From positions 31,401,493-31,465,492 of the forward strand of contig NC_133223.1 of assembly GCF_040436345.1 (NCBI RefSeq): a stretch of DNA of 64,000 nucleotides. Reading direction: 5' to 3'. Made by a program: the position numbers and the translations under genes. The stretch is from Pagrus major. Its lineage: Eukaryota > Chordata > Actinopteri > Spariformes > Sparidae. The notes beneath the pieces were generated by a model. That model was not told the DNA's origin. It was given only the letters and a program-made list of their open reading frames with translations, and made no database searches. Shown piece by piece: positions 9,678-62,470 of this stretch (positions are counted from its first letter, which is position 1; each line of letters begins with the position of its first letter).

Positions 9678-10099
9678 CACACGTTCATAATATAACTGTG
9701 TAGTCAGGTGAGGGTGTCAATAAAGATTAACAGTTTTGAATAGTACTCCTATATAAAGAGCTGCTGGAGGTAAAGTGTGATAAAAGATTAAAAAAAAATA
9801 TATATATTATGATAAATACATTTTATTAACTGTGAATGATTGGGTTTGCTAATTGTCAGTTGTAAAGTGCTTTGATAAAGTCTCATATATTATATAAAAC
9901 AGTTTAGATTTTATTAAAAAAAGATGTTCCCGTCCTTTTCTCACATGGGGAATAGATTGTAATGTTTGTATGATATTGAAATTAAAATTCTGATCCATAA
10001 ATAAATACATTTAAATGGATATTGAAAACCAAGTGTTGTTGCTATTACTATTGTCATTAATAATATTGATTTTATATCGACTAACTTATGTTATAAATT

Positions 10100-10806
10100 A
10101 TCCTTTTATCATTATTATCATTATTATTATTATTATTATTAGTAGTAGTAGTAGTCGTAGTTTCAGTATTATTGTTTTTATTAGCAGTAGTAGTAGTCAT
10201 AGTAGTAGTATTGTTGTTTTTATTATTATTATTATAATTATTGTTATTATTATTGGTAGTAGTTGTTGTTGTATTGTTGTTTTGATTATTATTACATTAT
10301 TATTAGCAGTAGTAGTCGTAGTTTCAGTATTATTGTTTTTATTAGCAGTAGTAGTAGTCATAGTAGTAGTATTGTTGTTTTTATTATTATTATTATAATT
10401 ATTGTTATTATTATTGGTAGTGGTTGTTGTTGTATTGTTGTTTTTATTATTATTATTATAATTATTGTTATTATTATTGGTAGTGGTTGTTGTTGTATTG
10501 TTGTTTTGATTATTATTATTATTATTATTATTACATTATTATTATTATTATTAGTAGTAGTAGTATTACTGTTTTGATAAGTAGTAGTAGTAGTAGTAGT
10601 TTTAGTATTATTGTTTTTATTAGCAGTAATAGTAGTAGTATTGTTGTTTTTATTATTATTAGTAGTAGTAGTAGTAGTAGTAGTAGCAGTATTACTGCTT
10701 TGATGAGTAGTAGTTGTAGTTTTAGTATTATTGTTTTTATTAGCAGTAATAGTAGTAGTACTGTTGTTTATTATTATTATTATTAGTAGTAGTAGTAGTA
10801 GTAGTA
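10100..10806. repeat. Compound TTA/GTA/GTT trinucleotide array with higher-order duplications
   Basis: About 0.7 kb built almost wholly of trinucleotides (TTA, GTA, GTT) in alternating blocks. Blocks recur in the same order: a segment beginning near 10150 returns about 165 bp later near 10315; a roughly 62-bp 'attattgttattattattggtag'-like block occurs near 10230, 10395 and 10460; a third block near 10590 returns near 10710. This shows segmental duplication on top of simple slippage. The poly-Ile/Ser/Asn open frames here are products of the repeat. Confidence 0.93.
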
Positions 10807-18200: not shown

Positions 18201-20664
18201 CCTATGGTCTGATCATGGGCGGCAGCAACCGCTCAGCTGAGGCCCAAAAACTGGCCAATGGTGTCAACATCCTCGTGGCCACACCTGGCCGTCTGCTGGA
18301 CCACCTCCAGGTGAGCGTTACATTATTTCTTTAGAGGTCACTGTGATTTGTAGAGTTGGTGGTTTTGGCACATTAATCAAACATGTTACAAGCTGTTTTA
18401 TCACTGCTTTGTGTTGTTTCAGCTCCTGATTGTCTTTAATACTTGAATACAAATATTTAAAAAGACATTTGTGCCTTCAGAATACGACTGGATTCATGTA
18501 CAAGAACCTGCAGTGTCTGATTATCGACGAGGCCGACAGAATCTTAGAGGTTGGCTTCGAGGAGGAACTGAAGCAGATCATCAAGCTGCTGCCGAGTACG
18601 TATCTACTGCCGCCAACTCTCTGTCCTCTGTGGTCGGATAGTCTTTCTTTTTCAAACCCTCTGAGCCATCCTGCTCTCTACACCACTGATTAATGTTTGT
18701 TCCTGTGTTTTCTCCAGAGAAGAGACAGACCATGCTGTTTTCAGCCACTCAGACCCGTAAGGTGGAGGACTTGGCTCGTATCTCCCTGAAGAAAGAGCCG
18801 CTGTACGTCGGCGTGGACGACAACAAAGACAACGCCACCGTTGACGGCCTGGAGCAGGTACTGTCGCTGCATTTCTGTGGGATCTGTTAGGACGTATACG
18901 ACATATAATCTGATGTGAAGTGACGTGTGTTGTGTTTCAGGGCTACGTGGTGTGTCCGTCAGAGAAGCGCTTCCTGCTGCTCTTCACCTTCCTGAAGAAG
19001 AACAGGAAGAAGAAGCTGATGGTCTTCTTCTCTTCCTGTATGTCTGTGAAGTTCCACTACGAGCTGCTCAACTACATCGACCTGCCCGTCATGGCCATCC
19101 ACGTAAGACGAGTGACTGTGTGATCCAGAAGCTTCATCCACAAGCCAGCTGCTGTGACAACAAACAAAAACACAACCGTTTCTTCTTCTTCTGTTTCTCA
19201 GGGCAAGCAGAAGCAGACCAAACGTACCACCACCTTCTTCCAGTTCTGTAACGCCGACTCAGGCATCCTGCTGTGTACTGACGTGGCGGCTCGAGGGCTG
19301 GACATCCCCGAGGTGGACTGGATCGTCCAGTACGACCCCCCAGATGACCCCAAGGTATCAAAACTACTCCGACATAATGCCACAGAGTATTAATTCTCTT
19401 TTAGAGTCGCAGTGGAGTGACGGTTAAAGATGTGCGTCAAGCTTGTCTTCATGTTCACAGGAGTACATCCACAGGGTGGGCAGGACAGCCAGAGGCATCA
19501 ACGGCAGAGGCCACGCGCTGCTGATCCTCCGACCAGAGGAGCTGGGCTTCCTCCGCTACCTGAAGGTGGCCAAGGTAACCATCTCCAACTCAAACCTGTC
19601 GTGCAGAATAACAATGTTTTAAAATATACATTTTCAAAGTGCCCACAAGTGTTAATAAAATAAATAAAACAAGGGCCTGCAGGTTTTTGGGCTCTGAAGG
19701 CAGCCTTTACTAACATTAATGTGCCGTGTCTTTAAGGGGGATTTGTCTTTATTAACACGTGTCTTCTGTTGTCCAGGTCCCTCTGAGCGAGTTTGATTTT
19801 TCTTGGAGTAAAATCTCTGATATCCAGTCCCAGGTAAGAATTCTACTTCTTCAGCTTCAACAAGCTTGTTGAATCTTAAAAAGTCTTCAAATATCTTGTA
19901 TAAAATGTTTTCTGCAATTAAAACCTCAGAAATTCAAATTGAAGACTATTCCAAGACTTTTAAGGCCTTTTTAAAAAATGTTCTTCTAGATTAAAGTCCA
20001 CATTTCTGACATTTATCTGCAAAGTTTTAATAAGAAAAAGATGATTTGTCAAATAGTCTGTTTAAATTTGGTTAGAAATGATTTTTGGAAAAGGATCTTA
20101 AAAAACATAATACCTGCATTCATCCTGTAAATGCTAGCTGTTCAGCTCTGTGAATGAAATTCAAAGACCACCTGACGGCTCCAGTCTCATTTCAAACTGC
20201 TTCCTGTCCTCCAGCTGGAGAAGCTGATCGAGAAGAACTACTATCTCCACAAGTCGGCTCAGGAGGCCTACAAGTCCTACGTGAGGGCTTACGACTCCCA
20301 CTCGCTCAAACAGATCTACAGCGTCAACACCCTCAACCTCCCCATGGTGGCGCAGTCGTTCGGCTTCAAAGTGCCTCCATACGTCGACCTGAGTATCCTT
20401 TGCTGCGATTTGACACCAAACTGTTCTTGTTTTTTGACACGGACGTCGTTTTTTATTTTAGAAGTCATTATGTTTCGTTCCAGTGTTGCTTTTCTTTAAC
20501 TCGCCTTCTCTCCAGACGTCAACAGCAGCAGAGGTGTGAAGATACAGAAGCGCGGCGGCGGAGGAGGGTTCGGATACCAGAAGTCCAAACAAGGGCACAA
20601 GTCCAAATTCTTTAAACACGTCAACAAAGGGGGGAAGGGAGACAGGCGGCAGTTCTCCCGCTGA
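15232..20664 (+). CDS. ddx18: ATP-dependent RNA helicase DDX18 (Has1 orthologue)
   Basis: Fourteen exons join in phase into 684 residues: 15232-15334, 15992-16177, 16265-16525, 17590-17725, 17870-17970, 18111-18310, 18481-18595, 18718-18857, 18941-19102, 19202-19354, 19461-19574, 19777-19833, 20215-20392 and 20516-20664. The N-terminus ([16 protein letters not shown]) is basic; exon 3 encodes a long Asp/Glu tract. The helicase core then shows the Q motif (about 184-215), AKTGSGKT (about 235-243), PTRELA (271-276), [12 protein letters not shown] (345-348), SAT (376-378), ARGLDIP and HRVGRTARG (523 on). The C-terminus ends in a Gly/Lys/Arg-rich tail ([10 protein letters not shown]). Has1/DDX18 is a nucleolar helicase for large-subunit ribosome assembly. 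The first ATG sits in CATGGCGGAC, a common housekeeping start context. All motifs are intact, and the length is close to human DDX18 (about 670). Confidence 0.97.
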
Positions 20665-22946: not shown

Positions 22947-37959
<15,013 letters not shown>

Positions 37960-38272
37960 CTTTGTACTTTTCAGAACGACACTCAGAACCAGACGCTGAA
38001 CCGGACCGGCTGTCGGCTCTGGACCGAGCTGTGATCCTCAAATCGACTCGGTTTCTTTTTCTTTCTTTTTTTTTAAATGCCAGCAACTGCTCCGCGCGAG
38101 GGGTCGGTCGGCTGGGCGGGCTGACCGTCGCGAGCGCGTCGGGGGATGTACCGGAACCGGCCGGCGCTGACGACGACGCGATTGGCTGAGCGTCAGAGGG
38201 CGTGGGTCACACGCTGACCAATCAGAGCTGGGGGCACGTTGTGCGGAGGTCCAATGGAATGAGAAAGAATGC
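37960..38272 (-). promoter_or_regulatory. gk 5' UTR and CpG-rich promoter
   Basis: CpG-dense sequence just upstream of the gk ATG. Several CCAAT boxes occur in either orientation: ATTGG near 38180, ACCAATCAG near 38217 and CCAATGG near 38251. No TATA box is evident, so an NF-Y-type CpG-island promoter is the likely class (inference). Confidence 0.6.
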
Positions 38273-44400: not shown

Positions 44401-47400
44401 AAACCTTCTTCTAAATATTAAACCAAAACCATGAGCTGAAAGCTTCACAGAGCTGCAGAATTTGGCCCTATTCCTCTGTGACTTTGTTCACATGTGCCAC
44501 CCCTTTTACATTACGCACTAATCCGATGTACTGATATCAAACATATTGATTAATGCAGATTTAAAGAATGAATCTTTTGTGCAAGTGTCCTCCTTCATGG
44601 ATGTGCTCTCACCAGAGTACCCTCTTGACCCTGAGGGCTGGATGTCCTTCACCAATTAGCTGATGGCATAATTGCACAATTTCATGATTACAGACACAGT
44701 TGGGCTCTCTGTGATTTGCCCTGATGAAACTTCACTCTAAAACACACATGCGCTCACCATCTGTGTGACACAGAAGCAGTGCTTGAAGTTGTGGAAAGGG
44801 ATGTTGTTGTATCTTCTGTAGACTTCGAACAGGAACTGCTGCAGAACTTGAGGCTCAATGTTGAAGGTCGCTATGAAGTCCAAATCTGTGTACATGACCT
44901 GCAGGAGCACCATGATCTCTGCATCCTCCCACTGCCTGCACACACACGCAAAACACACACAACATATATGAATAATTTCCTTTTAAATCTTCTGCCTGTC
45001 CTGTGCTGTTTCCACACATGAGCAGTACTCATGCTTGTATTTTTGCAACGATATCCTGATATATAATTCATTTGAACACACTTTGTTGATAGAAGCAAAA
45101 ATGTAGAATACCAGCTTTATCCTTTATAATACCTCTTATCTCACACAAAGGGAAAGAAAGAAAAGAAAAGCACATTTTATCAGGGTTTCAAAGGAATCCT
45201 GTTATTTACTATGATTATGCCCTACTCGAAGCTTTAGTTTTCTGTTCATAATCACATATCTCTCCATCAACACCATTGTGGGTTTGTTTTAAAAGCTTTT
45301 TGAACAAATGAAATGATGACCAGGCCTGACTGAACGCAGCATACGCTTCCTCCCCATGAAGCCCACTTCAAACATGGTGTGTTGATTAAGCCTTTTATGA
45401 AGACCTTCTTTTGATTTGTGAGCCCTTTGCAGGCCTATTTATATTGAAATGAGTGTGTCTATTGGAAGAAAAGAGGGCGGCTCACATCCTCTTCAGAAAC
45501 GCATCAGAGGTGCATGTTGAGCACGACTTCCATTAGCTGACCGTCTTTCTGTCACACAGGAAACAGGTGCACCGAGTGGTTTTCACTCCTGATCACACAG
45601 GCGCAAAGACATCACAGTGATGAAGACTAATGAAAACATCTCCAAACTCACCAGTTATCAAAGGTTGGAGTCTTCAAGTACTGCCTCACTTCGTCTGATA
45701 CTTCCAGGGAGCTGCAGGGTGACAACACGCGTGATTACGAGATATTCAAACATAATATTTGGTAGCACAAGTGAGCTCTGCATGTGAACGTGCCTCATTT
45801 GGAGAAACTTTTCCCGTACATGCTCACACTCCTTCCTGGTCTTGTGCAGGGTTCTCTTGTGGTAGAACGGGGAGGGCTTGTGTGTTCCTTCTGACAGGTC
45901 TTTAAACAATCCCAGCCAGCTCAGATGCTCCACACTCTGAGGAAAAAAGACTTAGACTTAGACTTCACTTTATTGATCCCGTTGGGATGACTCCCTCAGG
46001 GAAATTGAATTTCCAGCAGCATACAGTTCACAATAAACTCTTAGCTAAAAATAGAAAATAAAGATAGGAATAGAACAAAATACATTCCTATCTTTATTTT
46101 CTATTTTTAGCTAAGAGTTTATTGTGAACTGTATGCTGCTGGAAATTCAATTTCCCTGAGGGAGTCATCCCAAGAAGCATAAATCCAGGCACCTGAGGCT
46201 GGAGGTCAGAGAAACACATCGTTCTTTACGTCAAATACCCGAACCAACCCCTTCAAAATAGGCCAGGAATCGTTTGCATGTCATGTTTTTGTCAGAGACT
46301 CCCTGGAAATTTGTATCAACAGCCATGCTAGTAGATATTTGTGGCTGTACAATTGTGAAGTCTTACAATTGACTCAATTAACTTAAGTAGTTATGGCAGT
46401 CCATCAGAGTCATTTTACTAAAACCCAAAAATTTAAAACTCATGGTGGTACGAGGGGAAATGTTTGAGGATCACCACAGTCTGTAGCATGCATTGTCTGG
46501 GAACCACACGTCTGCACCAAATCTCAAGTTTGTAATGTTCTTATTTCTGATGAAGATTTAAAAACTCCATATTTCGAGCAGCTTTAAATCCCCCGGTCAC
46601 TTTGTCCGTACCTCGAGTTTCTCCCGGAATGAATCAACCTGTTTCTTCATCTCGTACACGACTGCAGGAGTCTCACCGGCCTCGATCAAGATTTTCTTCT
46701 CCAGGCCCTGCAGTCTGAGATCCCACACCATCAGTGAGGTGTTAAGTCAGAAGACATTTATTTTTACCTTTGGACTGTGTTGTACACAGTCTTCTTGGCT
46801 TCCTTGTTCAAAGAATAAAGAATCCAAATGCCAGATCTCTGACTCAGACTTTTTCACCTTTTTCATTAAATATGACTCAAATTCTCCGAAAGAATATCAT
46901 GTTTCTCTCATTTCCCACCTTGCCTACCTTTTCTCCATGGACGAGAGGTCAAATCCGAGTGCACCGGCAAGTTCTGCACCTGAAATCAAAAGTAAAGATG
47001 GAGACTGTCAGCGTTTGTTTACATAAACCCCAGCACTGTGATTCCCATGATGCTGAATTAAAGATACCTAACGGCTCACTGTTGCAGTCGGAGGCCACCA
47101 CCTCCAGCTTGTAGCAGGAGTTCGGGCTGTTGGGCTCCAGACTCGGGGAGATGTTGATTATGTTGCCTTTGGGGTTGTACAGCTTCAGGATGTCGTGGGG
47201 TCCCGCCTCGGCTGCAGAGCGGAAAAGATCTGGAAGGAACGGCTCATTTCAACCGGACATTTTGACTAGATGTTGGGACAATTTCCAGCCGTGTTTTTCG
47301 CAACGTAACCGGATATTTTTGACTAGACATCGGAGCAAAACCAGTAATAAGAGCATCTTTTGAATTGCAAGGCATGTTTATAAACTGCATGATCACCAAA

Positions 47401-48127
47401 TACAAAGGATGACCACAGGCCAAACGGATTTGACATAACTTTCCAACCCAAAATTGTGCTTAAAAATGGCTTATAGCTGATTGATAAGCATCTGCAAATG
47501 ACTGTAATTACTACTTATGAGCCCCCACTAAGTCTGCCGAATTAGAGAGTGGTACCACTTCTACGTAAGACTGCCACAGATGCATAGAGACTCTACAGTC
47601 AAAACTCTAATCAACATGTTTTAACTCCAAATGACAAACAACTGTTTCCAGAAAATACATGCTTATGTTAATATTTTTTATGAGATCTTAAATAAGGTGT
47701 TTCTTTTGCCTTCCTCCCCACTTGAGACGAAGCACACATGAAGAACATGTGAAGCCGATCAGGAGCTGTCAGTGGCAGCTGTATCGCTGCCTGTAGCTCA
47801 GACAACCTCCAGAACACTTAAACAAGTCTGTGTAACGACTGATCTGTGCGTCTGATCCACAGAAAACTGTTAGAATAGTTGTCTGTCAATGAACTGTCTT
47901 CTGTTAATGCAACTGCAACTATTAATTCTTAAACTCTGTAATGGTATATGCGTGTATATTTGCACTCAGACACACCACACATGCATTTTCTCATATATAT
48001 AAATGAACTTTAAATGGTAACCTCATTTTCTGCTCCTACCTTTGACATCCTGGGCCGGGCAGTCCAGAGGGAACTCAGCCTGCTCCGGTCTCCCGTTCAC
48101 CGTGAAGTAGATGATTTTTGTTGCCAT
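41427..48127 (-). CDS. pde9a: PDE9-type cGMP-specific 3',5'-cyclic phosphodiesterase
   Basis: Fourteen minus-strand exons join in phase into 539 residues: 48040-48127, 47068-47229, 46928-46979, 46612-46714, 45794-45936, 45652-45711, 44758-44935, 43919-44041, 43739-43831, 43561-43628, 42798-42900, 42595-42699, 41721-41867 and 41427-41621. The N-terminal ~200 residues ([20 protein letters not shown]..., then a helical stretch) match PDE9 layout. The catalytic domain has [24 protein letters not shown] (His291/Asp292), a second metal Asp401 in VSDISNE, and the invariant Gln452 in SSQTGFIRF. It hydrolyses cGMP. The Lys/Glu-rich tail is not catalytic. Exon 5 ends at a GC donor. Divergence from mammalian PDE9A suggests one of several fish paralogues; the exact one is not resolved. 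An ATG 5 nt upstream opens an 11-codon overlapping frame, and an AATAAAAG box lies about 80 nt upstream. Confidence 0.93.
42974..43268. mobile_element. MITE with 19-bp terminal inverted repeats and TA target duplication
   Basis: Left end TCCCAGATAGCAAAATTGT and the complement of the right end (TCCCACATAGCAAAATTGT) differ at one base. TA dinucleotides flank both sides (42972-42973 and 43269-43270). It is 295 bp long with no coding capacity, in the PDE9 intron between exons 10 and 11. The TA duplication fits a Tc1/mariner-type nonautonomous element. Confidence 0.85.
45982..46173. repeat. Perfect 90-bp inverted repeat (hairpin) in a PDE9 intron
   Basis: Left arm 45982-46071 and right arm 46084-46173 were compared base by base and are exact reverse complements, separated by a 12-nt loop. 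The left flank ('actttattgatccc', 'gggaaattgaattt') resembles the end of common fish retroposons, so the structure looks like a recent inverted duplication of an element end. It lies in the intron between exons 4 and 5. Confidence 0.95.
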
Positions 48128-48132
48128 GTCAT

Positions 48133-49745
48133 GAGCTCAGAGCCACTGATGTTGCTGTGTGCACTGCTGATTTCAGTGGTAAACACTCCACCCCCATGCT
48201 TTTATTCCCTCCACCTCCTCTTCTGCTCCTCCTTCCTTTCTTTTGTACAACAACATTTTTTTCAAATGACAGCAGGAGGAATTAATTGAAAATACAATTT
48301 GTTTCATTTGTTTCATTAATAAGTGCTTTTTATGATAATTATGAATCATTGTCTTATAGATATGTTATTAATACATACGTTTGAGATCTCATAATTATGA
48401 CATAAAAAGTCAAATAGAATAATAATACGAACAAAACGAGAACATTTCTGAGGAAAATTTGCGTGATGCTTGGTAAGGAAGTATAAATAGAGATAGCTGT
48501 GATGTCTGTGAGAGAGAGTGGGACAAAATGGCCGACAAAAAGATCGCTCAATGAGTTGCCATCCATGGACATTAGACTGACACCTAGTAGTACTTAGCAG
48601 TACTCATTTACTACAAAATACAGGAAAAACAAAGATGGGGAACATTAATAAAATCTGAAAGGACGAATTGAAACATTTTTCTAAATCTTTTTTGAAAAAG
48701 CACTACAATCCAATAAAAAGAGGTGTGTCTCACTCAACCACTACAGGAAGACATTTTGGAATTGATTTTGAGTTGATGGGTCACATGACCTGGAAGTTAT
48801 TGGGAAAAAAATGACAATTTTTAATAAAAATACTTTAAAAAATTAAGAATTTTCATGGAAAAAATATTTTAAAAATTGAAAAAGCACACCAGGAAGACAT
48901 TTTGGCATTGATATTGAGTCACACTATGATTGGTCACACGGACCCGGCGCCATATTGGGTCTTAAGAGGTCTTCGCCTCCTCAGTTGTATTTTTGCCCCC
49001 TCTGTTTAAGTTTTATACATCGATAGAAAAACACCAAAAAGTTTTTTCCAAGATACACGTGATCATAGTTAGCTGTTGTTTCAGGACCATGGACAGCACA
49101 GTTACACGTAATGCAGGTAATCTGACAGATTGTTGTAATTTTTCAGCTTCCCAATTGAGTGAAAAGATGAAAAGATCACATTTCAAGGTAAAACAACACA
49201 TTGATGACTCGTTAGCTGATGTTAGCATTAACGTTTGATCCTGTGTGTTTCACTTCCACGTTTAGACAACAGGATGTGTGTTGATATTTCTGAAATCATT
49301 TACGGCCTTCCTAATCGCATCGTATCAAGCCAAGGACGTTACATTCAAACCTGGATACCTGGATACTGTGTCGGAGGCATTTTATTCCTATGAGTGGCAC
49401 ATGAAGCCAAAATCACTCATCTAGACTTTATTGGACCAAATGGCTCAAATTATAATAGACAAAAACACCCAACAGGTTCTTTATAAATCAGGGGTGAGCC
49501 GAGTTAAAACCACAACTGAGACTAATTTAAAAAAAGGGTTTACCATAAAAATAACCAATACAGACAACTGTAGTACAGGCGACAGAGACTCACAGGGTCC
49601 TGCTGCTTCAGGCTCCTGTGCTGGCTCGTCTCCAGGGTTCGGCTCGTCCTGTTCCTCTCGGTTGCTCGTGTCGGTAATTCATCTGTTCAACTCGTCCATC
49701 ACCTGCAGGAGGAGAAAGAGGAGCTGTGGTAGTTTTACGTCTCTG
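48133..49745. other. Region upstream of the PDE9 gene, left flank of the satellite
   Basis: Contains the PDE9 promoter near its left end and two partial copies of the spacer repeat (48749-48925). The rest is AT-rich. At 49590-49706 (minus) a pyrimidine tract and CAG are followed by a short open stretch (VMDELNR-stop or a 30-codon alternative frame) that could be a terminal exon of the unidentified minus-strand unit; this is weak. Confidence 0.45.
48749..48925. repeat. Relative of the satellite spacer, partly tandem (about 142-bp unit)
   Basis: 'tcacatgacctggaag' at 48780 runs through AT-rich sequence to 'ggcattgatattgagt' near 48920, matching the spacers inside the satellite except for a ~20-bp extra AT-rich stretch. 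The end motif 'ggaagacattttgg.attgat.ttgag' also occurs 142 bp earlier at 48749, so the spacer is itself part of a short tandem. Confidence 0.85.
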
Positions 49746-52700
49746 AGGAGGTTTTGTGTCTGTTTTGTGTCTGTGTCTGTTTTGTGTCTGTTTTGTGTCT
49801 GTTTTGTGTCTGTGTCTGTTTGTGAATGTTTTGTGTCTGTTTTGTGTCTATGAAGGTTTTGTGAAGGTTTTGTGTCTGTTTGTGTCTGTTTTGTGTCTGT
49901 TTTGTGTCTGTTTTGTGTCTGTGAAGGTTTTGTGTCTGTTTTGTGTCTGTTTTGTGAATGTTTTGTGTCTGTTTTGTGTCTGTGAAGGTTTTGTGTCTGT
50001 GAAGGTTTTGTGTCTGTTTTGTGAAGGTTTTGTGTCTGTTTTGTGAAAGTTTGTGAAGGTTTTGTGTCTGTTTTGTGTCTGTTTTGTGTCTATGAAGGTT
50101 TTGTGAAGGTTTTGTGTCTGTTTGTGTCTGTTTTGTGTCTGTTTTGTGTCTGTTTTGTGTCTATGAAGGTTTTGTGAAGGTTTTGTGTCTGTTTTGTGTC
50201 TGTTTTGTGTCTGTGAAGGTTTTGTGTCTGTTTTGTGTCTGTTTTGTGAATGTTTTGTGTCTGTTTTGTGTCTGTGAAGGTTTTGTGTCTGTTTTGTGAA
50301 GGTTTTGTGTCTGTTTTGTGAAAGTTTGTGAAGGTTTTGTGTCTGTTTTGTGAAGGTTTTGTGTCTGTTTTGTGTCTGTTTTGTGTCTGTGAAGGTTTTG
50401 TGTCTGTTTTGTGAATGTTTTGTGTCTGTTTTGTGTCTGTTTTGTGCCTGTTTTGTGTCTGTTTTGTGAAGGTTTTGTGTCTGTTTTGTGAAAGTTTGTG
50501 AAGGTTTTGTGTCTGTTTTGTGAATGTTTTGTGTCTGTTTGTGAATGTTTTGTGTCTGTTTGTGAATGTTTTGTGTCTGTTTGTGAATGTTTTGTGAATG
50601 TTTTGTGAATGTGTCTGTTTTGTGTCTGTTTTGTGCCTGTTTTGTGTCTGTTTTGTGTCTGTTTTGTGCCTGTTTTGTGTCTGTTTTGTGAAGGTTTTGT
50701 GTCTGTTTTGTGTCTGTTTGTGAAGGTTTTGTGTCTGTTTTGTGAAGGTTTTGTGTCTGTTTGTGAAGGTTTTGTGTCTGTTTTGTGAAGGTTTTGTGTC
50801 TGTTTTGTGAAGGTTTTGTGTCTATGTCTGTTTTGTGTCTGTTTTGTGTCTGTTTTGTGTCTGTTTTGTGTCTGTTTTGTGTCTGTTTGTGAAGGTTTTG
50901 TGTCTGTTTGTGAAGGTTTTGTGTCTGTTTGTGAAGGTTTTGTGTCTGTTTTGTGAAGGTTTTGTGTCTATGTCTGTTTTGTGTCTGTTTTGTGTCTGTG
51001 AATGTTTTGTGTCTGTTTTGTGAAGGTTTTGTGTCTGTGTCTGTTTTGTGAAGGTTTTGTGTCTGTTTTGTGAATGTTTTGTGTCTGTTTGTGAATGTTT
51101 TGTGTCTGTTTGTGAATGTTTTGTGAATGTTTTGTGAATGTTTTGTGTCTGTTTTGTGTCTGTTTTGTGAAGGTTTTGTGTCTATGTCTGTTTTGTGTCT
51201 GTTTTGTGTCTTTTTTGTGAAGGTTTTGTGTCTGTTTGTGAAGGTTTTGTGTCTGTTTGTGAAGGTTTTGTGTCTGTTTTGTGAAGGTTTTGTGTCTGTT
51301 TTGTGTCTGTTTTGTGTCTGTGTCTGTTTTGTGAAGGTTTTGTGTCTGTTTTGTGAAGGTTTTGTGTCTGTTTTGTGTCTGTTTTGTGTCTGTGAATGTT
51401 TTGTGTCTGTTTTGTGAAGGTTTTGTGTCTGTTTTGTGAAGGTTTTGTGTCTGTTTTGTGTCTGTGTCTGTTTTGTGAAGGTTTTGTGTCTGTTTTGTGA
51501 AGGTTTTGTGTCTGTTTTGTGAATGTTTTGTGTCTGTTTTGTGTCTGTGTCTGTTTTGTGAAGGTTTTGTGTCTGTTTTGTGAATGTTTTGTGTCTGTTT
51601 TGTGAATGTTTTGTGTCTGTTTTGTGAATGTTTTGTGAAGGTTTTGTGTCTGTTTTGTGAATGTTTTGTGTCTGTTTTGTGAATGTTTTGTGTCTGTTTT
51701 GTGTCTGTGTCTGTTTTGTGAAGGTTTTGTGTCTGTTTTGTGAAGGTTTTGTGTCTGTTTTGTGAAGGTTTTGTGTCTGTTTTGTGAATGTTTTGTGTCT
51801 GTTTTGTGTCTGTTTTGTGTCTGTGTCTGTTTTGTGAAGGTTTTGTGTCTGTTTTGTGAATGTTTTGTGTCTGTTTTGTGAATGTTTTGTGTCTGTTTTG
51901 TGTCTGTGTCTGTTTTGTGTCTGTTTTGTGTCTGTTTTGTGAATGTTTTGTGTCTGTTTTGTGTCTGTTTTGTGAATGTTTTGTGTCTGTTTTGTGTCTG
52001 TTTGTGAATGTTTTGTGTCTGTTTGTGAATGTTTTGTGAATGTTTTGTGTCTGTGTCTGTTTTGTGTGTGTTTTGTGTGTTTTGTGTCTGTTTTGTGAAG
52101 GTTTTGTGTCTGTTTGTGAAGGTTTTGTGTCTGTTTGTGAAGGTTTTGTGAAGGTTTTGTGTCTGTTTGTGAAGGTTTTGTGTCTGTTTGTGAAGGTTTT
52201 GTGTCTGTTTTGTGAATGTTTTGTGTCTGTTTTGTGAAGGTTTTGTGTCTGTTTTGTGAAGGTTTTGTGTCTGTTTTGTGAATGTTTTGTGTCTGTTTTG
52301 TGAAGGTTTTGTGTCTGTGAATGTTTTGTGTCTGTGTCTGTTTTGTGTCTGTTTTTTGAAGGTTTTGTGTCTGTGTCTGTTTTGTGAAGGTTTTGTGTCT
52401 GTTTTGTGTCTGTGTCTGTTTTGTGTCTGTTTTGTGAATGTTTTGTGAATGTTTTGTGTCTGTTTTGTGTCTGTGTCTGTTTTGTGAAGGTTTTGTGTCT
52501 GTTTTGTGAATGTTTTGTGTCTGTTTTGTGAATGTTTTGTGTCTGTTTTGTGTCTGTGTCTGTTTTGCGTCTGTTTGTGAAGGTTTTGTGTCCGTGTCTG
52601 TTTTGTGTCTGTTTTGCGTCTGTTTGTGAAGGTTTTGTGTCTGTTTGTGAAGGTTTTGTGTCTGTTTGTGAAGGTTTTGTGTCTGTTTGTGAAGGTTTTG

Positions 52701-52931
52701 TGTCTGTTTTGTGTCTGTTTTGTGAAGGTTTTGTGCCTGTGAATGTTTTGTGTCTGTTTTGTGTCTGTTTTGTGTCTGTTTTGTGAATGTTTTGTGTCTG
52801 TTTTGTGAATGTTTTGTGTCTGTTTTGTGTCTGTTTTGTGTCTGTTTGTGAAGGTTTTGTGTCTGTGTCTGTTTGTGAAGGTTTTGTGACTGTTTGTGAA
52901 GGTTTTGTGTCTGTTTTGTGTCTGTTTTGTG

Positions 52932-53048
52932 TCACATGACCTGGAAGCTATTGGGAAAAAAATGACAATTTTTAATAAAAATACTTGGAAAAATATTTTA
53001 AAAATTAAAAAAGCACACCAGGAAGTGTCTTTGGCATTGATATTGAGT
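52932..53048. repeat. AT-rich spacer, copy 1
   Basis: Starts 'tcacatgacctgg', includes 'tgacaatttttaataaaaat', and ends 'ggcattgatattgag'. Nearly identical to copies at 54102, 55315, 55713, 56336 and 56658. Confidence 0.93.
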
Positions 53049-54101
53049 TTTGTGTCTGTTTTGTGAAAGTTTTGTGTCTGTTTTGTGAAGGTTTTGTGTC
53101 TGTGTCTGTTTTGTGAAGGTTTTGTGTCTGTTTGTGAATGTTTTGTGTCTGTTTTGTGAAAGTTTTGTGTCTGTTTTGTGAAAGTTTTGTGTCTGTTTGT
53201 GTCTGTTTGGTGTCTGTTTTGTGTCTGTTTTGTGAATGTTTTGTGTCTGTTTTGTGTCTGTTTTGTGAAGGTTTTGTGTCTGTCTGTTTTTGAAGGTTTT
53301 GTGACTGTTTGTGAATGTTTTGTGAATGTTTTGTGTCTGTTTGTGTCTGTTTTGTGTCTGTTTTGTGTCTGTTTTGTGAATGTTTTGTGTCTGTTTTGTG
53401 AATGTTTTGTGTCTGTTTTGTGTCTGTTTTGTGAATGTTTTGTGCCTGTTTTGTGAATGTTTTGTGCCTGTTTTGTGAATGTTTTGTGAATGTTTTGTGT
53501 CTGTTTTGTGAATGTTTTGTGAATGTTTTGTGCCTGTTTTGTGTCTGTTTTGTGTCTGTTTTGTGAATGTTTTGTGTCTGTTTTGTGTCTGTTTTGTGAA
53601 TGTTTTGTGTCTGTTTTGTGTCTGTTTTGTGAAGGTTTTGTGTCTGTTTTGTGAATGTTTTGCATCTGTTTGTGAATGTTTTGTGTCTGTTTTGTGAATG
53701 TTTTGTGTCTGTTTTGTGTCTGTTTGTGAATGTTTTGTGAATGTTTTGTGAAGGTTTTGTGTCTGTTTTGTGAATGTTTTGCATCTGTTTGTGAATGTTT
53801 TGTGTCTGTTTTGTGAATGTTTTGTGTCTGTTTTGTGTCTGTTTGTGAATGTTTTGTGTCTGTTTTGTGAATGTTTTGTGAATGTTTTGCATCTGTTTGT
53901 GAATGTTTTGTGTCTGTTTTGTGAATGTTTTGTGAATGTTTTGTGTCTGTTTGTGAATGTTTTGTGTCTGTTTTGTGAATGTTTTGTGTCTGTTTTGTGA
54001 ATGTTTTGTGTCTGTTTTGTGTCTGTTTGTGAAGGTTTTGTGTCTGTGTCTGTTTGTGAAGGTTGTGTGACTGTTTGTGAAGGTTTTGTGTCTGTTTTGT
54101 G

Positions 54102-54218
54102 TCACATGACCTGGAAGCTATTGGGAAAAAAATGACAATTTTTAATAAAAATACTTGGAAAAATATTTTAAAAATTAAAAAAGCACACCAGGAAGTGTCT
54201 TTGGCATTGATATTGAGT
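54102..54218. repeat. AT-rich spacer, copy 2
   Basis: Near-identical to copy 1; about 1170 bp further along. Confidence 0.93.
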
Positions 54219-55314
54219 TTTGTGTCTGTTTGTGAAAGTTTTGTGTCTGTTTGTGAAGGTTTTGTGTCTGTGTCTGTTTTGTGAAGGTTTTGTGTCTGTT
54301 TGTGAATGTTTTGTGTCTGTTTTGTGTCTGTTTTGTGAATGTTTTGTGCCTGTTTTGTGTCTGTTTTGTGAATGTTTTGCATCTGTTTTGTGAATGTTTT
54401 GTGTCTGTTTTGTGAATGTTTTGTGTCTGTTTTGTGTCTGTTGTGTGAATGTTTTGTGTCTGTTTTGTGAATGTTTTGTGAATGTTTTGTGTCTGTTTTG
54501 TGAATGTTTTGTGAAGGTTTTGCATCTGTTTGTGAATGTTTTGTGTCTGTTTTGTGAATGTTTTGTGTCTGTTTTGTGTCTGTTTGTGAATGTTTTGTGT
54601 CTGTTTTGTGAATGTTTTGTGAATGTTTTGCATCTGTTTGTGAATGTTTTGTGTCTGTTTTGTGAATGTTTTGTGAATGTTTTGTGTCTGTTTTGTGAAT
54701 GTTTTGTGTCTGTTTGTGAAGGTTTTGTGTCTGTGTCTGTTTTGTGAATGTTTTGTGTCTGTTTTGTGAATGTTTTGTGAAGGTTTTGCATCTGTTTGTG
54801 AATGTTTTGTGTCTGTTTTGTGAATGTTTTGTGTCTGTTTTGTGTCTGTTTGTGAATGTTTTGTGTCTGTTTTGTGAATGTTTTGTGAATGTTTTGCATC
54901 TGTTTGTGAATGTTTTGTGTCTGTTTTGTGAATGTTTTGTGAATGTTTTGTGTCTGTTTTGTGAATGTTTTGTGTCTGTTTGTGAATGTTTTGTGTCTGT
55001 TTTGTGAATGTTTTGTGAATGTTTTGCATCTGTTTGTGAATGTTTTGTGTCTGTTTTGTGAATGTTTTGTGAATGTTTTGCATCTGTTTGTGAATGTTTT
55101 GTGTCTGTTTTGTGAATGTTTTGTGTCTGTTTTGTGAATGTTTTGTGAATGTTTTGCATCTGTTTGTGAATGTTTTGTGTCTGTTTTGTGAATGTTTTGT
55201 GTCTGTTTTGTGAATGTTTTGTGTCTGTTTTGTGTCTGTTTGTGAAGGTTTTGTGTCTGTGTCTGTTTGTGAAGGTTTTGTGACTGTTTGTGAAGGTTTT
55301 GTGTCTGTTTTGTG

Positions 55315-55431
55315 TCACATGACCTGGAAGCTATTGGGAAAAAAATGACAATTTTTAATAAAAATACTTGGAAAAATATTTTAAAAATTAAAAAAGCACA
55401 CCAGGAAGTGTCTTTGGCATTGATATTGAGT
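55315..55431. repeat. AT-rich spacer, copy 3
   Basis: Near-identical to copy 1; about 1213 bp after copy 2. Confidence 0.93.
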
Positions 55432-55712
55432 TTTGTGTCTGTTTTGTGAAAGTTTTGTGTCTGTTTTGTGAAAGTTTTGTGTCTTTTTGTGTCTGTTTTG
55501 TGTCTGTTTTGTGTCTGTTTTGTGAATGTTTTGTGTCTGTTTTGTGTCTGTTTTGCATCTGTTTGTGAATGTTTTGTGTCTGTTTTGTGTCTGTTTGTGA
55601 AGGTTTTGTGTCTGTGTCTGTTTTTGAAGGTTTTGTGACTGTTTGGGAAGGTTTTGTGTCTGTTTGTGAAGGTTTTGTGTCTGTTTTGTGAAGGTTTTGT
55701 GTCTGTTTTGTG

Positions 55713-55829
55713 TCACATGACCTGGAAGCTATTGGGAAAAAAATGACAATTTTTAATAAAAATACTTGGAAAAATATTTTAAAAATTAAAAAAGCACACC
55801 AGGAAGTGTCTTTGGCATTGATATTGAGT
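55713..55829. repeat. AT-rich spacer, copy 4
   Basis: Near-identical to copy 1; only about 398 bp after copy 3. Confidence 0.93.
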
Positions 55830-56335
55830 TTTGTGTCTGTTTGTGAAAGTTTTGTGTCTGTTTGTGAAGGTTTTGTGTCTGTGTCTGTTTTGTGAAGGTT
55901 TTGTGTCTGTTTGTGAATGTTTTGTGTCTGTTTTGTGTCTGTTTTGTGAAGGTTTTGTGTCTGTTTGTGAATGTTTTGTGTCTGTTTTGTGTCTGTTTTG
56001 TGAATGTTTTGTGCCTGTTTTGTGTCTGTTTTGTGAATGTTTTGTGTCTGTTTTGTGAATGTTTTGTGTCTGTTTTGTGTCTGTTTTGTGAATGTTTTGT
56101 GAATGTTTTGTGTCTGTTTTGTGTCTGTTTTGTGAATGTTTTGTGAATGTTTTGTGTCTGTTTTGTGAATGTTTTGTGTCTGTTTTGTGTCTGTTTTGTG
56201 AAGGTTTTGTGTCTGTTTTGTGAAGGTTTTGTGTCTGTTTTGTGAATGTTTTGTGTCTGTTTGTGAAGGTTTTGTGTCTGTGTCTGTTTGTGAAGGTTTT
56301 GTGACTGTTTGTGAAGGTTTTGTGTCTGTTTTGTG

Positions 56336-56452
56336 TCACATGACCTGGAAGCTATTGGGAAAAAAATGACAATTTTTAATAAAAATACTTGGAAAAATAT
56401 TTTAAAAATTAAAAAAGCACACCAGGAAGTGTCTTTGGCATTGATATTGAGT
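56336..56452. repeat. AT-rich spacer, copy 5
   Basis: Near-identical to copy 1; about 623 bp after copy 4. Confidence 0.93.
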
Positions 56453-56657
56453 TTTGTGTCTGTTTGTGAATGTTTTGTGTCTGTTTTGTGTCTGTTTTGT
56501 GAATGTTTTGCGTCTGTTTTGTGTCTGTTTGTGAATGTTTTGTGTCTGTTTTGTGAAGGTTTTGTGAATGTTTTGTGTCTGTTTGTGAAGGTTTTGTGTC
56601 TGTTTGTGAAAGTTTTGTGTCTGTTTGTGAAGGTTTTGTGTCTGTGTCTGTTTTGTG

Positions 56658-56774
56658 TCACATGACCTGGAAGCTATTGGGAAAAAAATGACAATTTTTA
56701 ATAAAAATACTTGGAAAAATATTTTAAAAATTAAAAAAGCACACCAGGAAGTGTCTTTGGCATTGATATTGAGT
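56658..56774. repeat. AT-rich spacer, copy 6
   Basis: Near-identical to copy 1; about 322 bp after copy 5. Confidence 0.93.
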
Positions 56775-56942
56775 TTTGTGTCTGTTTGTGAAAGTTTTGT
56801 GTCCGTTTGTGAATGTTTTGTGAAGGTTTTGTGTCTGTTTTGTGCCTGTTTTGTGTCTGTTTTGTGTCTGTGTCTGTTTTGTGAAGGTTTTGTGTCTGTT
56901 TTGTGTCTGTGTCTGTTTTGTGAAGGTTTTGTGAATGTTTTG

Positions 56943-57141
56943 TGTCTGTCTGTGGAGGATTTGTGTCTGTCTGTGGAGGATTTGTGTCTGTCTGTGGAGG
57001 ATTTGTGTCTGTCTGTGGAGGATTTGTGTGTCTGTCTGTGGAGGATTTGTGTGTCTGTCTGTGGAGGATTTGTGTGTCTGTCTGTGTCTGTCTGTGGAGG
57101 ATTTGTGTGTCTGTCTGTGTCTGTCTGTGGAGGATTTGTGT
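56943..57141. repeat. Distinct terminal array of TGTCTGTCTGTGGAGGATT-type units
   Basis: At the right edge the unit changes to about 20-22 bp ('tctgtctgtggaggatttgtg') repeated about eight times, with later units expanded by extra TCTG/TGTG. It is related to the main array through GTGTCTG but is a separate homogenised block. Confidence 0.9.
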
Positions 57142-58428
57142 GTCTGTTTTGTGTTGTGTCTGTGTTTTCAGTCTGCTCTGATTGGTCAGCTCACACAGGC
57201 CTGTGATAGATAAGAATGACGCTGAACACATGACTGAAGCCAGGCAGCAGAAGCTTCTGGTGAAAGAAAGAATCTCACAAGGACGTTTCTCAGACAGCAA
57301 CTTCAAAGGCTCATGAAGCTCATCAAGCAGTCTATTAACATACACCTGAACGCTCTACAAGTGGAGATGTACCAGATCTGAACACAAACCTACAATACAC
57401 TCAGACGCAGACAAATTACACTTTTTGGACTAAGATCTGACCCCTCAAGGCGTCAACACAAGACCTCAGAGTGTAATGTGTCAGTCACCCGGGTGTTTAC
57501 AGCAGCGTTCAGCTCTCAGTTCCCTGCACTTCTACCATGAATGAGACAACAACATCTGCTTCTCAACCAAAAACATCACCACCGCACAATTGCACGTCAG
57601 AGAAAGACTATGATCCTTATTAGTGGCCTGCTGGGCAGTGAGGCCGAGGCTAACGTTACAGCTTACAAGATCTTTGTATGGTGTTGTCAAGCTGGATGCT
57701 GTGTGCTAGTCAAAGTTGCACACAGCTGCAAAGCAAATGCATTCCTGCAATTTGATCATTTCTTTTTACTACGGAGCTTCAGCATTACCTTCAGGGCAAA
57801 GGCGTCCACACTACCTTGTTACTGGGCTCGCTGGTGAACCACCACTAGCGACAGGTGAGGACAGTGAACCAACTGCTGGCGTCAGGCTAGCTTCTACCGT
57901 GGCCCTGAGCTTGTCCCTAGCCAGGCCAACGTGCGTCCACTTCGGCCTGAACTAAACACGCACACTTCAGGCACGCTTCTACCAACAAGGCCTCTGTAAC
58001 CAGAGACTCTGTATGCTGGCGGGAACGCACGAGGGCTCATAGGATACGCTATTACCAATACCAGTCAGCCGAACAAAGCTCCTGCTTCTGCCATTGCCTG
58101 TGTGGCCACAGCTTACAGCTTAAAGGACAGCGCAAGGACATTTGCCCTACAAGATAACTGAACTCCGGTCAAGCTAGCCTGTGACGATCAATGACAACAC
58201 CAGGTTTGCCTAGCAGACCACTAATGTCTGATTACTGTTACTGAACTTTTGTGCCGAGAACTCTACGGTGGTGAGGTGGTTGTCGTAGCTTTCACAAACA
58301 CAAACACAAACACAAACCTTCAATACACTCAGAAGGACGCAGACAAACTAACAACCACTGAAGAGAAAGCTTACACAGGTTGCACTTCATTCAGAAAATG
58401 CTTTCTGCAAACTAGAGCTGAAAAAGAG
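57142..58428. other. Unassigned, probably repeat-derived DNA right of the satellite
   Basis: Higher in GC than the flanks, with no recognised exon; the 98-codon open frame at 57541 has no family resemblance. A motif of about 37 bp ('acacaaacct.caatacactcaga...cgcagacaaa') occurs at 57381-57418 and again at 58310-58350 in the same orientation, bracketing about 0.9 kb, which suggests an inserted or duplicated unit. Confidence 0.5.
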
Positions 58429-59329
58429 GAAGAGGAAATATAAACAATAAGGCTGTAAACAACACCTAAATGCATTTATTTGATCTCATTAATGAACACC
58501 GATCAGCCACAACATTAAAACCACTGACAGGTGAAGTAAATACCTAGATCATCTGGTTCCAATGCCATGTTCTGTTGGGAAAGATTGAGTCCTGGCATTC
58601 ATGTGGACGCCCCTTTGACGAGCACCACTCACCCAAACACCGTTGCAGACCCAGTAAACCCCCGCCTGGCAATGACACTACTCGATGGCAGTGGCCTCCC
58701 AGCAGGACAATGTGGCTGCAACACTGCAGAAACTGCTCAGGAACGACCCGAGGAACGTGACAAAGAGCTCAAGGTGTCAACCTGGCCTTCAAATTCCTCA
58801 GATTTCAATCCGACTGAGCATCCACTGGATGTACCGAGCCAAGAGCGATCCACGGGGGCCCCAACGTGGATGGGACTTGGCTCTGGTGCATCCCACAGAT
58901 GCTCAACTGGATTGTAATATGGGGGATCTGGAGGCCAGTTCGACACCTTGAGTTCTCTGTCATGAAACTCAGGTCGTTCCTGAGCAGTTTCTGCAGTGTT
59001 GCAGCCACACTGTCCTGCTGGGGGGCCACTGCCTTCAAGGAGTGCTGTTGCCATGAGGGGGTCAACATGGACTGTGGCAGTGTTTGGGTGGGTGGTGCTT
59101 GTCAAAGAGGCGTCTACATGAATGCCAGGACTCAATGTTTCCCAGCAGAACATTTGATTGAAACGAGATGATCCATGCTCACTTCACGTCAGTGATTTTA
59201 ACGTTGTGGCTGATCGATGTATTAACAGGTTAAATACTTAATATTAATTAAATACTTACTACTATAAATGAGATCAAATAAATGCATTTTATTCTTTTTT
59301 AACAGCCTTATTATTTATATTCCCTCTAA
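58429..59329. mobile_element. Foldback element: two inverted Tc1-like transposase remnants
   Basis: The arms (about 58429-58880 and 58890-59329) are imperfect reverse complements, starting with 'gaggaaatataaa.aataaggctgt', then 'aaatgcatttatttgatctcat', then 'gatcagccacaac.ttaaaa'. Each arm translates, with breaks, to a C-terminal Tc1-type DDE fragment: plus strand ...DGSGLPAGQCG...ELKVSTWPSNSSDFNPTEH and minus strand ...EGSGPPAGQCG...ELKVSNWPPDPPYYNPVEH, resembling the 'LTWPPNSPDLNPIEHLWD' end of the family. The right arm carries an extra ~35-bp AT-rich insertion. Both copies are degenerate and cannot encode an active transposase. It is probably a nonautonomous foldback rather than two independent insertions, because flanking sequence is also inverted. 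Confidence 0.8.
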
Positions 59330-61336: not shown

Positions 61337-62470
61337 AGACAGCACCTGAGTGACAGTTACCTGGATCAGACCAGAGATTAATAGAGCTGTTATTAAGATT
61401 AAATAAAGTCACGATACTTTAATATTGTGATACTTGGTTTACATTTCTGACTTCAGTAACTGTATCACAATACTTTTAAGAATAATGCAGAAGGAAGATT
61501 TTATCCAAATTCTTCAGGAAAACCCCAAATCATCATCCAGAAGATTGGGTCTTGGGTGCAGGTGGGCCGATCAATAAACAGATGATGAATTTTCATGAAA
61601 AACATTTTTTTAAAAATCGAAAAAACACGCAAATTCAAATTCAATCCCACCCCTTCTCCATCAATCTTTAGCTAATAATTCAGCATAGGCTTCCTCATTT
61701 AATCATAACTTATGAATATATAAATAAATAAATATGTAATATATATGTACATGTATATCATACATAAACATAAAAATATATGTAATTTCTAACCAAATAT
61801 GTCCTGCAAAATATAATTAATTTATCAACATTATCTTATGTATTATAACTTATATATTGATTTGTTTTTGTCTTGTATAAACATGTACTATTCCCATAAT
61901 TAATTAAATATGTTATACTAATTTAAGTAGGTATGTATTCTCCAGCACCTACTTACCCCTCACCATACATATCTACATATTTACACTTTCCTTTCTGCAT
62001 AAATAAATAAATAAATAAATAAACAATGCCTTCCTGCATCCCTGTACCTTGTGAAAATCATGTTTTTGTACATTTATTAACCACAGACTTCAACAGTTTT
62101 TTAATGGAAAATCTTGCAACATATTTCATAAATTATTAATGATTAACCAATAATCGATGACGGTTATCAATTAAAGAAGCTGCTTAAAATGTGCATCCCT
62201 AAATCCAGCAGCTGCTTTCACCTGAGTAAAGGTGTCATTTCTTCCTCCACCACTGGGCAGCTGTTAATGCAGTGCGTCCTCCAGGCCTGTAGGGGCGCTG
62301 TGCGCAGCGCGCCGCAGTACATCAACCCTCCGCCACCCTTCCCTCGGCTTCTTCTTGGTCGTCGCCACATGGACTGCCGGAGGAAGAGACCAGCGTGGTT
62401 CGCAGAGAGCTGCTCAACGAGGCTTGTTGTCATTTTTCGGTCCATGTCTCGTGTAGTTAATTAAATCGAA
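61337..62470. other. Intergenic AT-rich DNA and nifk promoter
   Basis: Mostly AT-rich with AAAT microsatellite runs (61690-61745, 62000-62023). A weak relative of the satellite spacer ('gaattttcatg.aaaa...aaaaatcgaaaaa') is seen near 61587-61625. From about 62260 a CpG-rich stretch probably contains the nifk promoter and 5' UTR. No other gene was seen. Confidence 0.6.

Follow-up and report, generated by a model that had tools for sequence, protein, structure and literature searches.

A mosaic minisatellite carrying six identical 116-bp elements in Pagrus major

Introduction

We analysed a 64,000-nucleotide stretch of Pagrus major contig NC_133223.1 (assembly GCF_040436345.1, positions 31,401,493 to 31,465,492 of the forward strand), hereafter the window, whose own numbering is used throughout. 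A mosaic tandem array of 7.4 kb, built mostly from 10, 11 and 17 bp units, spans positions 49746–57164. It lies in gene-containing DNA, between a PDE9A-like gene on the minus strand and NIFK on the plus strand, and falls outside the recognised exons. Six copies of an AT-rich 116-bp element that lacks the minisatellite motif are embedded in the array, and all six are identical (0 differences). They divide its right half into tracts of repeat units. The first-pass annotation of this locus correctly described mosaic, very short units, and missed both the six interruptions by this non-repeat element and a dimer that acts as the working unit. The parts of the array, its edges and the one diverged relative of the element next to it are as follows.

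48781–48918, plus strand: diverged sequence related to the 116-bp element, 0.8 kb to the left of the array (138 aligned columns at 79% identity, E 1.8e-34)
49723–49750, plus strand: degenerate left edge, similar in local alignment to the GGAGG-type 21-bp unit found in the far-right block
49746–52931, plus strand: left block of mosaic 10/11/17-bp units with no embedded element, AAGG units outnumbering AATG units (69 vs 40)
52932–53047, plus strand: 116-bp element, copy 1 of six identical copies
53048–54101, plus strand: tract 1, 1054 bp, with both ends like those of tracts 2 and 4
54102–54217, plus strand: 116-bp element, copy 2
54218–55314, plus strand: tract 2, 1097 bp, with both ends like those of tracts 1 and 4
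55315–55430, plus strand: 116-bp element, copy 3
55431–55712, plus strand: tract 3, 282 bp, unit order without clear kinship to tracts 1, 2 and 4
55713–55828, plus strand: 116-bp element, copy 4
55829–56335, plus strand: tract 4, 507 bp, with both ends like those of tracts 1 and 2
56336–56451, plus strand: 116-bp element, copy 5
56452–56657, plus strand: tract 5, 206 bp
56658–56773, plus strand: 116-bp element, copy 6
56774–56937, plus strand: tract 6, the final stretch of 10/11/17-bp units
56938–57164, plus strand: right block with TGTCTGTCTGTGGAGGATTTG as its 21–23 bp unit, a variant form of the TCTG+AAGG dimer (Tandem Repeats Finder (TRF), dimer alignment)

Successive element copies start 1170, 1213, 398, 623 and 322 bp apart, enclosing the five tracts numbered 1 to 5.

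Results

Array composition

TRF, proposed earlier as a check on the array, returns an 11-bp repeat at 49751–56337 (614.9 copies, 71% matches), and further TRF rows reach 57164. Annotation of this kind, as a single 11-bp array, conceals the higher-order structure. Cutting 49746–57164 at T-runs yields 572 pieces, 565 of them shorter than 40 nt; these include 433 of 11 nt, 81 of 10 nt and 45 of 17 nt. Among the T-run pieces the commonest units are TTTTGTGTCTG (n=245), TTTTGTGAATG (n=94) and TTTTGTGAAGG (n=53), followed by TTTGTGAAGG (n=37), TTTGTGAATG (n=33) and TTTTGTGTCTGTGTCTG (n=27). In the seven bins of 1 kb between 50001 and 57000, GC skew lies at 0.57–0.67 and AT skew at −0.49 to −0.77, whereas GC skew outside the array is 0.005 at 48001–49000 and −0.002 at 57001–58000. 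Both the 7.4-kb array of very short units and its strand asymmetry (T/G against A/C), as reported in the first-pass annotation, are thus real.

The label "satellite" given there is stronger than the data show. Minisatellites are defined as head-to-tail units of 6–99 bp (PMC2688266), and a review places minisatellite or variable number tandem repeat (VNTR) arrays of 0.5–30 kb in euchromatic regions (PMC8122249). Head-to-tail units of 10, 11 and 17 bp, a 21–22 bp dimer and a total of 7.4 kb place the present array, a single locus between genes, in the minisatellite/VNTR class.

Unit order and the left-to-right gradient

Units were classed as CTG-ending or A-type (AATG, AAGG or AAAG). A-type units neighbour each other only 38 times, against 107.2 ± 5.9 in 2000 shuffles (minimum 90), confirming that the unit order is non-random, as had been noted from inspection. 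Likewise, 65 of the 70 ten-base TTTGTGAAGG and TTTGTGAATG units come after a CTG-ending unit. Because the unit types alternate so strongly, the working repeat is a 21–22 bp dimer.

The previously noted gradient in unit type also holds: AATG, AAGG and CTG-ending units number 40, 69 and 158 to the left of 52932 and 92, 35 and 157 to its right, with 551 of the 572 pieces classed. The chi-square value (p=1.8e-7) is overstated because the units are copies of each other. Exact repeats of at least 150 bp cover 47% of the array right of 52931, a figure that includes the contribution of the 116-bp element itself, compared with 0.6% left of 52931, and reach 266 bp. The gradient therefore coincides with recent copying, mainly in the right half of the array.

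At the far right, the 21–23 bp array that had been called different does exist, but represents a variant form of this dimer, since it aligns to TCTG+AAGG with a score of 39 against a maximum of 31 in 300 shuffles. The far-right unit also aligns to the left edge: the score for 49700–49750, whose last five bases belong to the array, is attained in 3 of 300 shuffles, and that for 49725–49775, about half of which is array, in none of 300. By these alignments both ends appear to carry the same unit type, probably an older one.

Higher-order copies bounded by the element

Tracts 1, 2 and 4 are alike at both ends. Their first 120 bp differ by 0, 7 and 7 edits and their last 120 bp by 1, 7 and 8, against 26.4 ± 11.4 edits (5th percentile 14, minimum 0) for 400 phased random pairs drawn from the array. 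Aligned as strings of units, the same three tracts score 98 vs 51.6 ± 5.1, 23.5 vs 6.6 ± 3.0 and 28.0 vs 4.7 ± 3.3 pairwise (30 shuffles each). Their middles differ, and so do their lengths, with a spread of as much as 590 bp. Six identical elements, together with three tracts alike at both ends, make this a higher-order repeat; the unit-level comparison covered tracts 1–5, of which tracts 3 and 5 fit the set unclearly.

Distances between tracts measured at their starts correlate with those measured at their ends (0.74, reached by 10 of 120 permutations). For the flanks to the left and right of an element copy the correlation is −0.41 over 15 pairs, reached by 658 of 720 permutations, and the flanks of one element copy are therefore without common history. 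Similarity thus goes with the tract rather than with the copy of the element, as would be expected if blocks of element and tract had been duplicated in register with the element; for five tracts this is no more than suggestive.

Zero differences in 6 × 116 bp allow at most about 0.43% substitution per copy (P=0.05, star tree). Fourteen unit forms are found once among 567 units, some of them point changes. On a rough reading, private substitution in the minisatellite is thus low as well, and so the identity of the elements need not mean selection.

Tests of structure and function

No evidence of function was found in this analysis, and the array probably has little functional importance. Expansion through hairpins or fold-backs was rejected: four 146-nt array stretches are predicted to fold at 0, 0, −0.3 and −0.5 kcal/mol, and 200, 200, 175 and 157 of 200 shuffles each fold at least as well. 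The 116-bp element folds near its shuffles (z −0.48). A structured RNA was likewise rejected, the window containing no Rfam match at gathering score.

Discussion

Interpretation of the array

We regard the locus as probably a noncoding, locally amplified mosaic minisatellite of VNTR type that evolves by unit slippage or unequal exchange together with duplication of element-bounded blocks. It is a known kind of array with an embedded-element higher-order organisation. Its origin may have been an old 21–22 bp dimer, as the alternation of unit types and the related units at both edges suggest, which would have expanded by slippage or unequal exchange of 10, 11 and 17 bp units. The AT-rich 116-bp piece, related to the sequence 0.8 kb to the left, would then have joined the array, and blocks of one element and one tract would have been duplicated in register with the element, consistent with the tract ends common to three of the five tracts. 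Unequal exchange is a candidate mechanism for these block duplications. Because tract middles differ by hundreds of base pairs while the six elements are identical, copy-number turnover may outrun point mutation, or conversion may keep the elements alike. The earlier proposal that variant order records an exchange history is upheld as far as the element-bounded higher-order copies go, with exchange itself as the presumed mechanism.

Several observations weigh against this interpretation. Some random pairs of array windows are identical too, and seven of the ten tract pairs are not clearly above shuffles in the unit-string alignment. The relationship between tracts, which depends on five of them and on a correlation that 10 of 120 permutations match, is suggestive. 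The evidence comes from one assembled sequence, which shows neither polymorphism nor exchange directly, and assembly itself may account for part of the identity among the elements. Frames on the minus strand stay open for up to 1382 codons, though unit composition accounts for that length.

Identical embedded elements are fixed landmarks between mosaic tracts and as such a useful record of repeat turnover, since they would let unit-level and block-level turnover be measured separately at one natural minisatellite. A more speculative and rather doubtful extension holds that the 116-bp element was the ancestral tandem unit, that its inter-unit junction seeded the minisatellite, and that it now serves as a homology anchor setting the register of exchange. 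If so, tract ends near the element would stay alike as the middles turn over, and block duplication, unit slippage and point mutation could be timed against each other at one locus.

Alternative explanations

The most serious alternative, possible but in our judgement the less probable account, is that the array belongs to a dispersed element (a transposon or repeat family), with the 116-bp piece as the family unit and the minisatellite in the unit junctions. Ahead of the relative at 48781–48918 lies the end of a similar unit, at about 48736–48773, with an alignment score reached in 0 of 300 shuffles, and by sequence comparison the minisatellite occupies the corresponding junction in the array. 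In addition, a 42-bp piece of this relative matches AT-rich sequence at 61587–61628 (86%, E 7.9e-7). However, no copy stands out when the 116-bp element is searched against the rest of the window, where the best scores of 33–34 are tied among several places and the tied match displayed is AT-rich. A third upstream unit and a kinship of the right flank to the upstream element were both unconvincing (12 of 300 shuffles reaching the score in each case) and were not used.

An assembly artefact, whether through inflation of a shorter true array or through the joining of haplotypes, is unlikely. Such arrays are difficult to assemble, and six perfect element copies and exact repeats of up to 266 bp are what an artefact of this sort would yield, but the copies are unlike in tract length and in their private unit variants, which simple read duplication would not produce.

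It is less probable still that the roughly 11-bp spacing of T-tracts has been selected, the array then forming a large domain of intrinsic curvature that serves to organise chromatin or position nucleosomes in the interval between PDE9A-like gene and NIFK. Curvature is indeed predicted, because T-tracts recur about every 11 bp: the wedge-model end-to-end ratio over 126 bp is 0.690 for the array, 0.927 for shuffled sequence and 0.943 for the flanks, an AA/TT-only model gives 0.706, 0.927 and 0.945, and lengthening the units by 2 bp abolishes the effect (0.951). Artificial sequences with a T4 tract every 10 or 11 bp give like values, however (0.480 and 0.664), and the spectral peak lies at 10.9–11.0 (15.0, 14.8) rather than at 10.5 (11.3). 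Shuffling the unit order leaves the array at least as curved (0.671), shortening the units by 1 bp makes it more curved (0.560), and 45 of the 565 units are 17 bp long and break phase. With the wedge parameters used, a curved control (0.78) is less curved than the array, so that absolute values are unreliable. We therefore rejected curvature as a selected property, the predicted bend being neither tuned to 10.5 bp nor dependent on unit order.

That the minus strand encodes a low-complexity repeat protein rich in K, T, Q, N and H can be set aside as extremely improbable: its three frames run without a stop for as many as 659, 1027 and 1382 codons (plus-strand maximum 178) because the main units lack stops on that strand in every frame, whereas unit lengths of 10, 11 and 17 are not multiples of three, so that no frame is kept as a protein-coding repeat would require, and the 116-bp element is open in one frame only.

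Comparison with known arrays

Variant-repeat mosaics are exemplified by human MS32 and other loci of the minisatellite variant repeat (MVR) type. Euchromatic minisatellites and VNTRs with variant mosaics, a class under review in PMC8122249, share short units, a kilobase array among genes and interspersed variants with the present locus, which differs in its embedded 116-bp element and element-bounded higher-order copies and is known from one assembled sequence. Mosaic tandem repeats likewise combine several unit types in one array, but the examples in section 3.2 of PMC10118999 are runs of 2–5 bp units, whereas here units of 10, 11 and 17 bp take alternate places in a dimer and build higher-order copies. 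A variable unit of about 10 bp also occurs in the ten-nucleotide minisatellite of the fish Tetraodon; that repeat is prominent and subtelocentric (PMC2688266), while ours is known from one locus, and the two are likened by description, not by sequence. Transposon-derived arrays such as Tetris TIR-220 (PMC4079207) similarly use tandem units of a longer element as building blocks; terminal inverted repeats and dispersed copies would set them apart from the 116-bp element, whose kin in the window are one diverged relative and a 42-bp AT-rich piece matching that relative.

Exact searches gave 0 matches for the 116-bp element in genome_contigs, a prokaryote collection that served as a contamination check only, and 0 matches for the 22-base dimer in viral_contigs. 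At least one of four unit strings appears in the text of 60 papers, and among the 20 listed the titles are unrelated to fish repeats.

Neighbouring genes and other features

Exons of the PDE9A-like gene lie at about 41.7–44.9 kb on the minus strand. Pfam PDEase_I is found in five frames (one of eight and four of ten given), PDE9A is the best solved-structure match for the single PDE9A-like frame tried, and a human PDE9A query matches the same exons. Weak matches to the PDE9A N terminus, consistent in order and strand, occur at 47.09–47.25 kb (E 0.44) and 48.04–48.12 kb (E 5.1). On the plus strand, NIFK matches at 62.49–62.61 kb (E 4.9e-4) and 63.57–63.70 kb (E 3.2e-11); the frame of the latter carries Pfam RRM_1, and human NIFK is the second-best of its five solved-structure matches. 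Seen from the array, the nearest PDE9A-like match, a weak one, is some 1.6 kb away and the NIFK match some 5.3 kb, which places the array either in a 5′ intron or in the interval separating divergent genes. Judged by these similarities, the neighbouring genes are vertebrate-like.

A perfect inverted repeat at 45982–46173, whose arms of 90 nt enclose 12 nt, lies between PDE9A-like matches; it may stem from a recent fold-back insertion or from faulty assembly. In the right flank, the segments 57381–57418 and 58309–58350 match each other directly over 42 columns (86%). Beyond it, an inverted repeat at 58547–59173 (289-nt arms, 82% complementary) includes frames with an NPVEHLWD-like motif, which we take to be one of Tc1-type transposases; the one frame tried has no Pfam match at 0.01.

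A second mosaic array at 10097–10806 consists of TTA/TAG-type triplets with longer periods of 63 and 161 bp, the 161-bp period at 95% matches. A CTE_SPB4 domain at 20236–20382, the C-terminal extension of DEAD-box rRNA helicases, is presumably DDX18-like. A minus-strand frame at 37846–38037 resembles what we assume to be the start of glycerol kinase.

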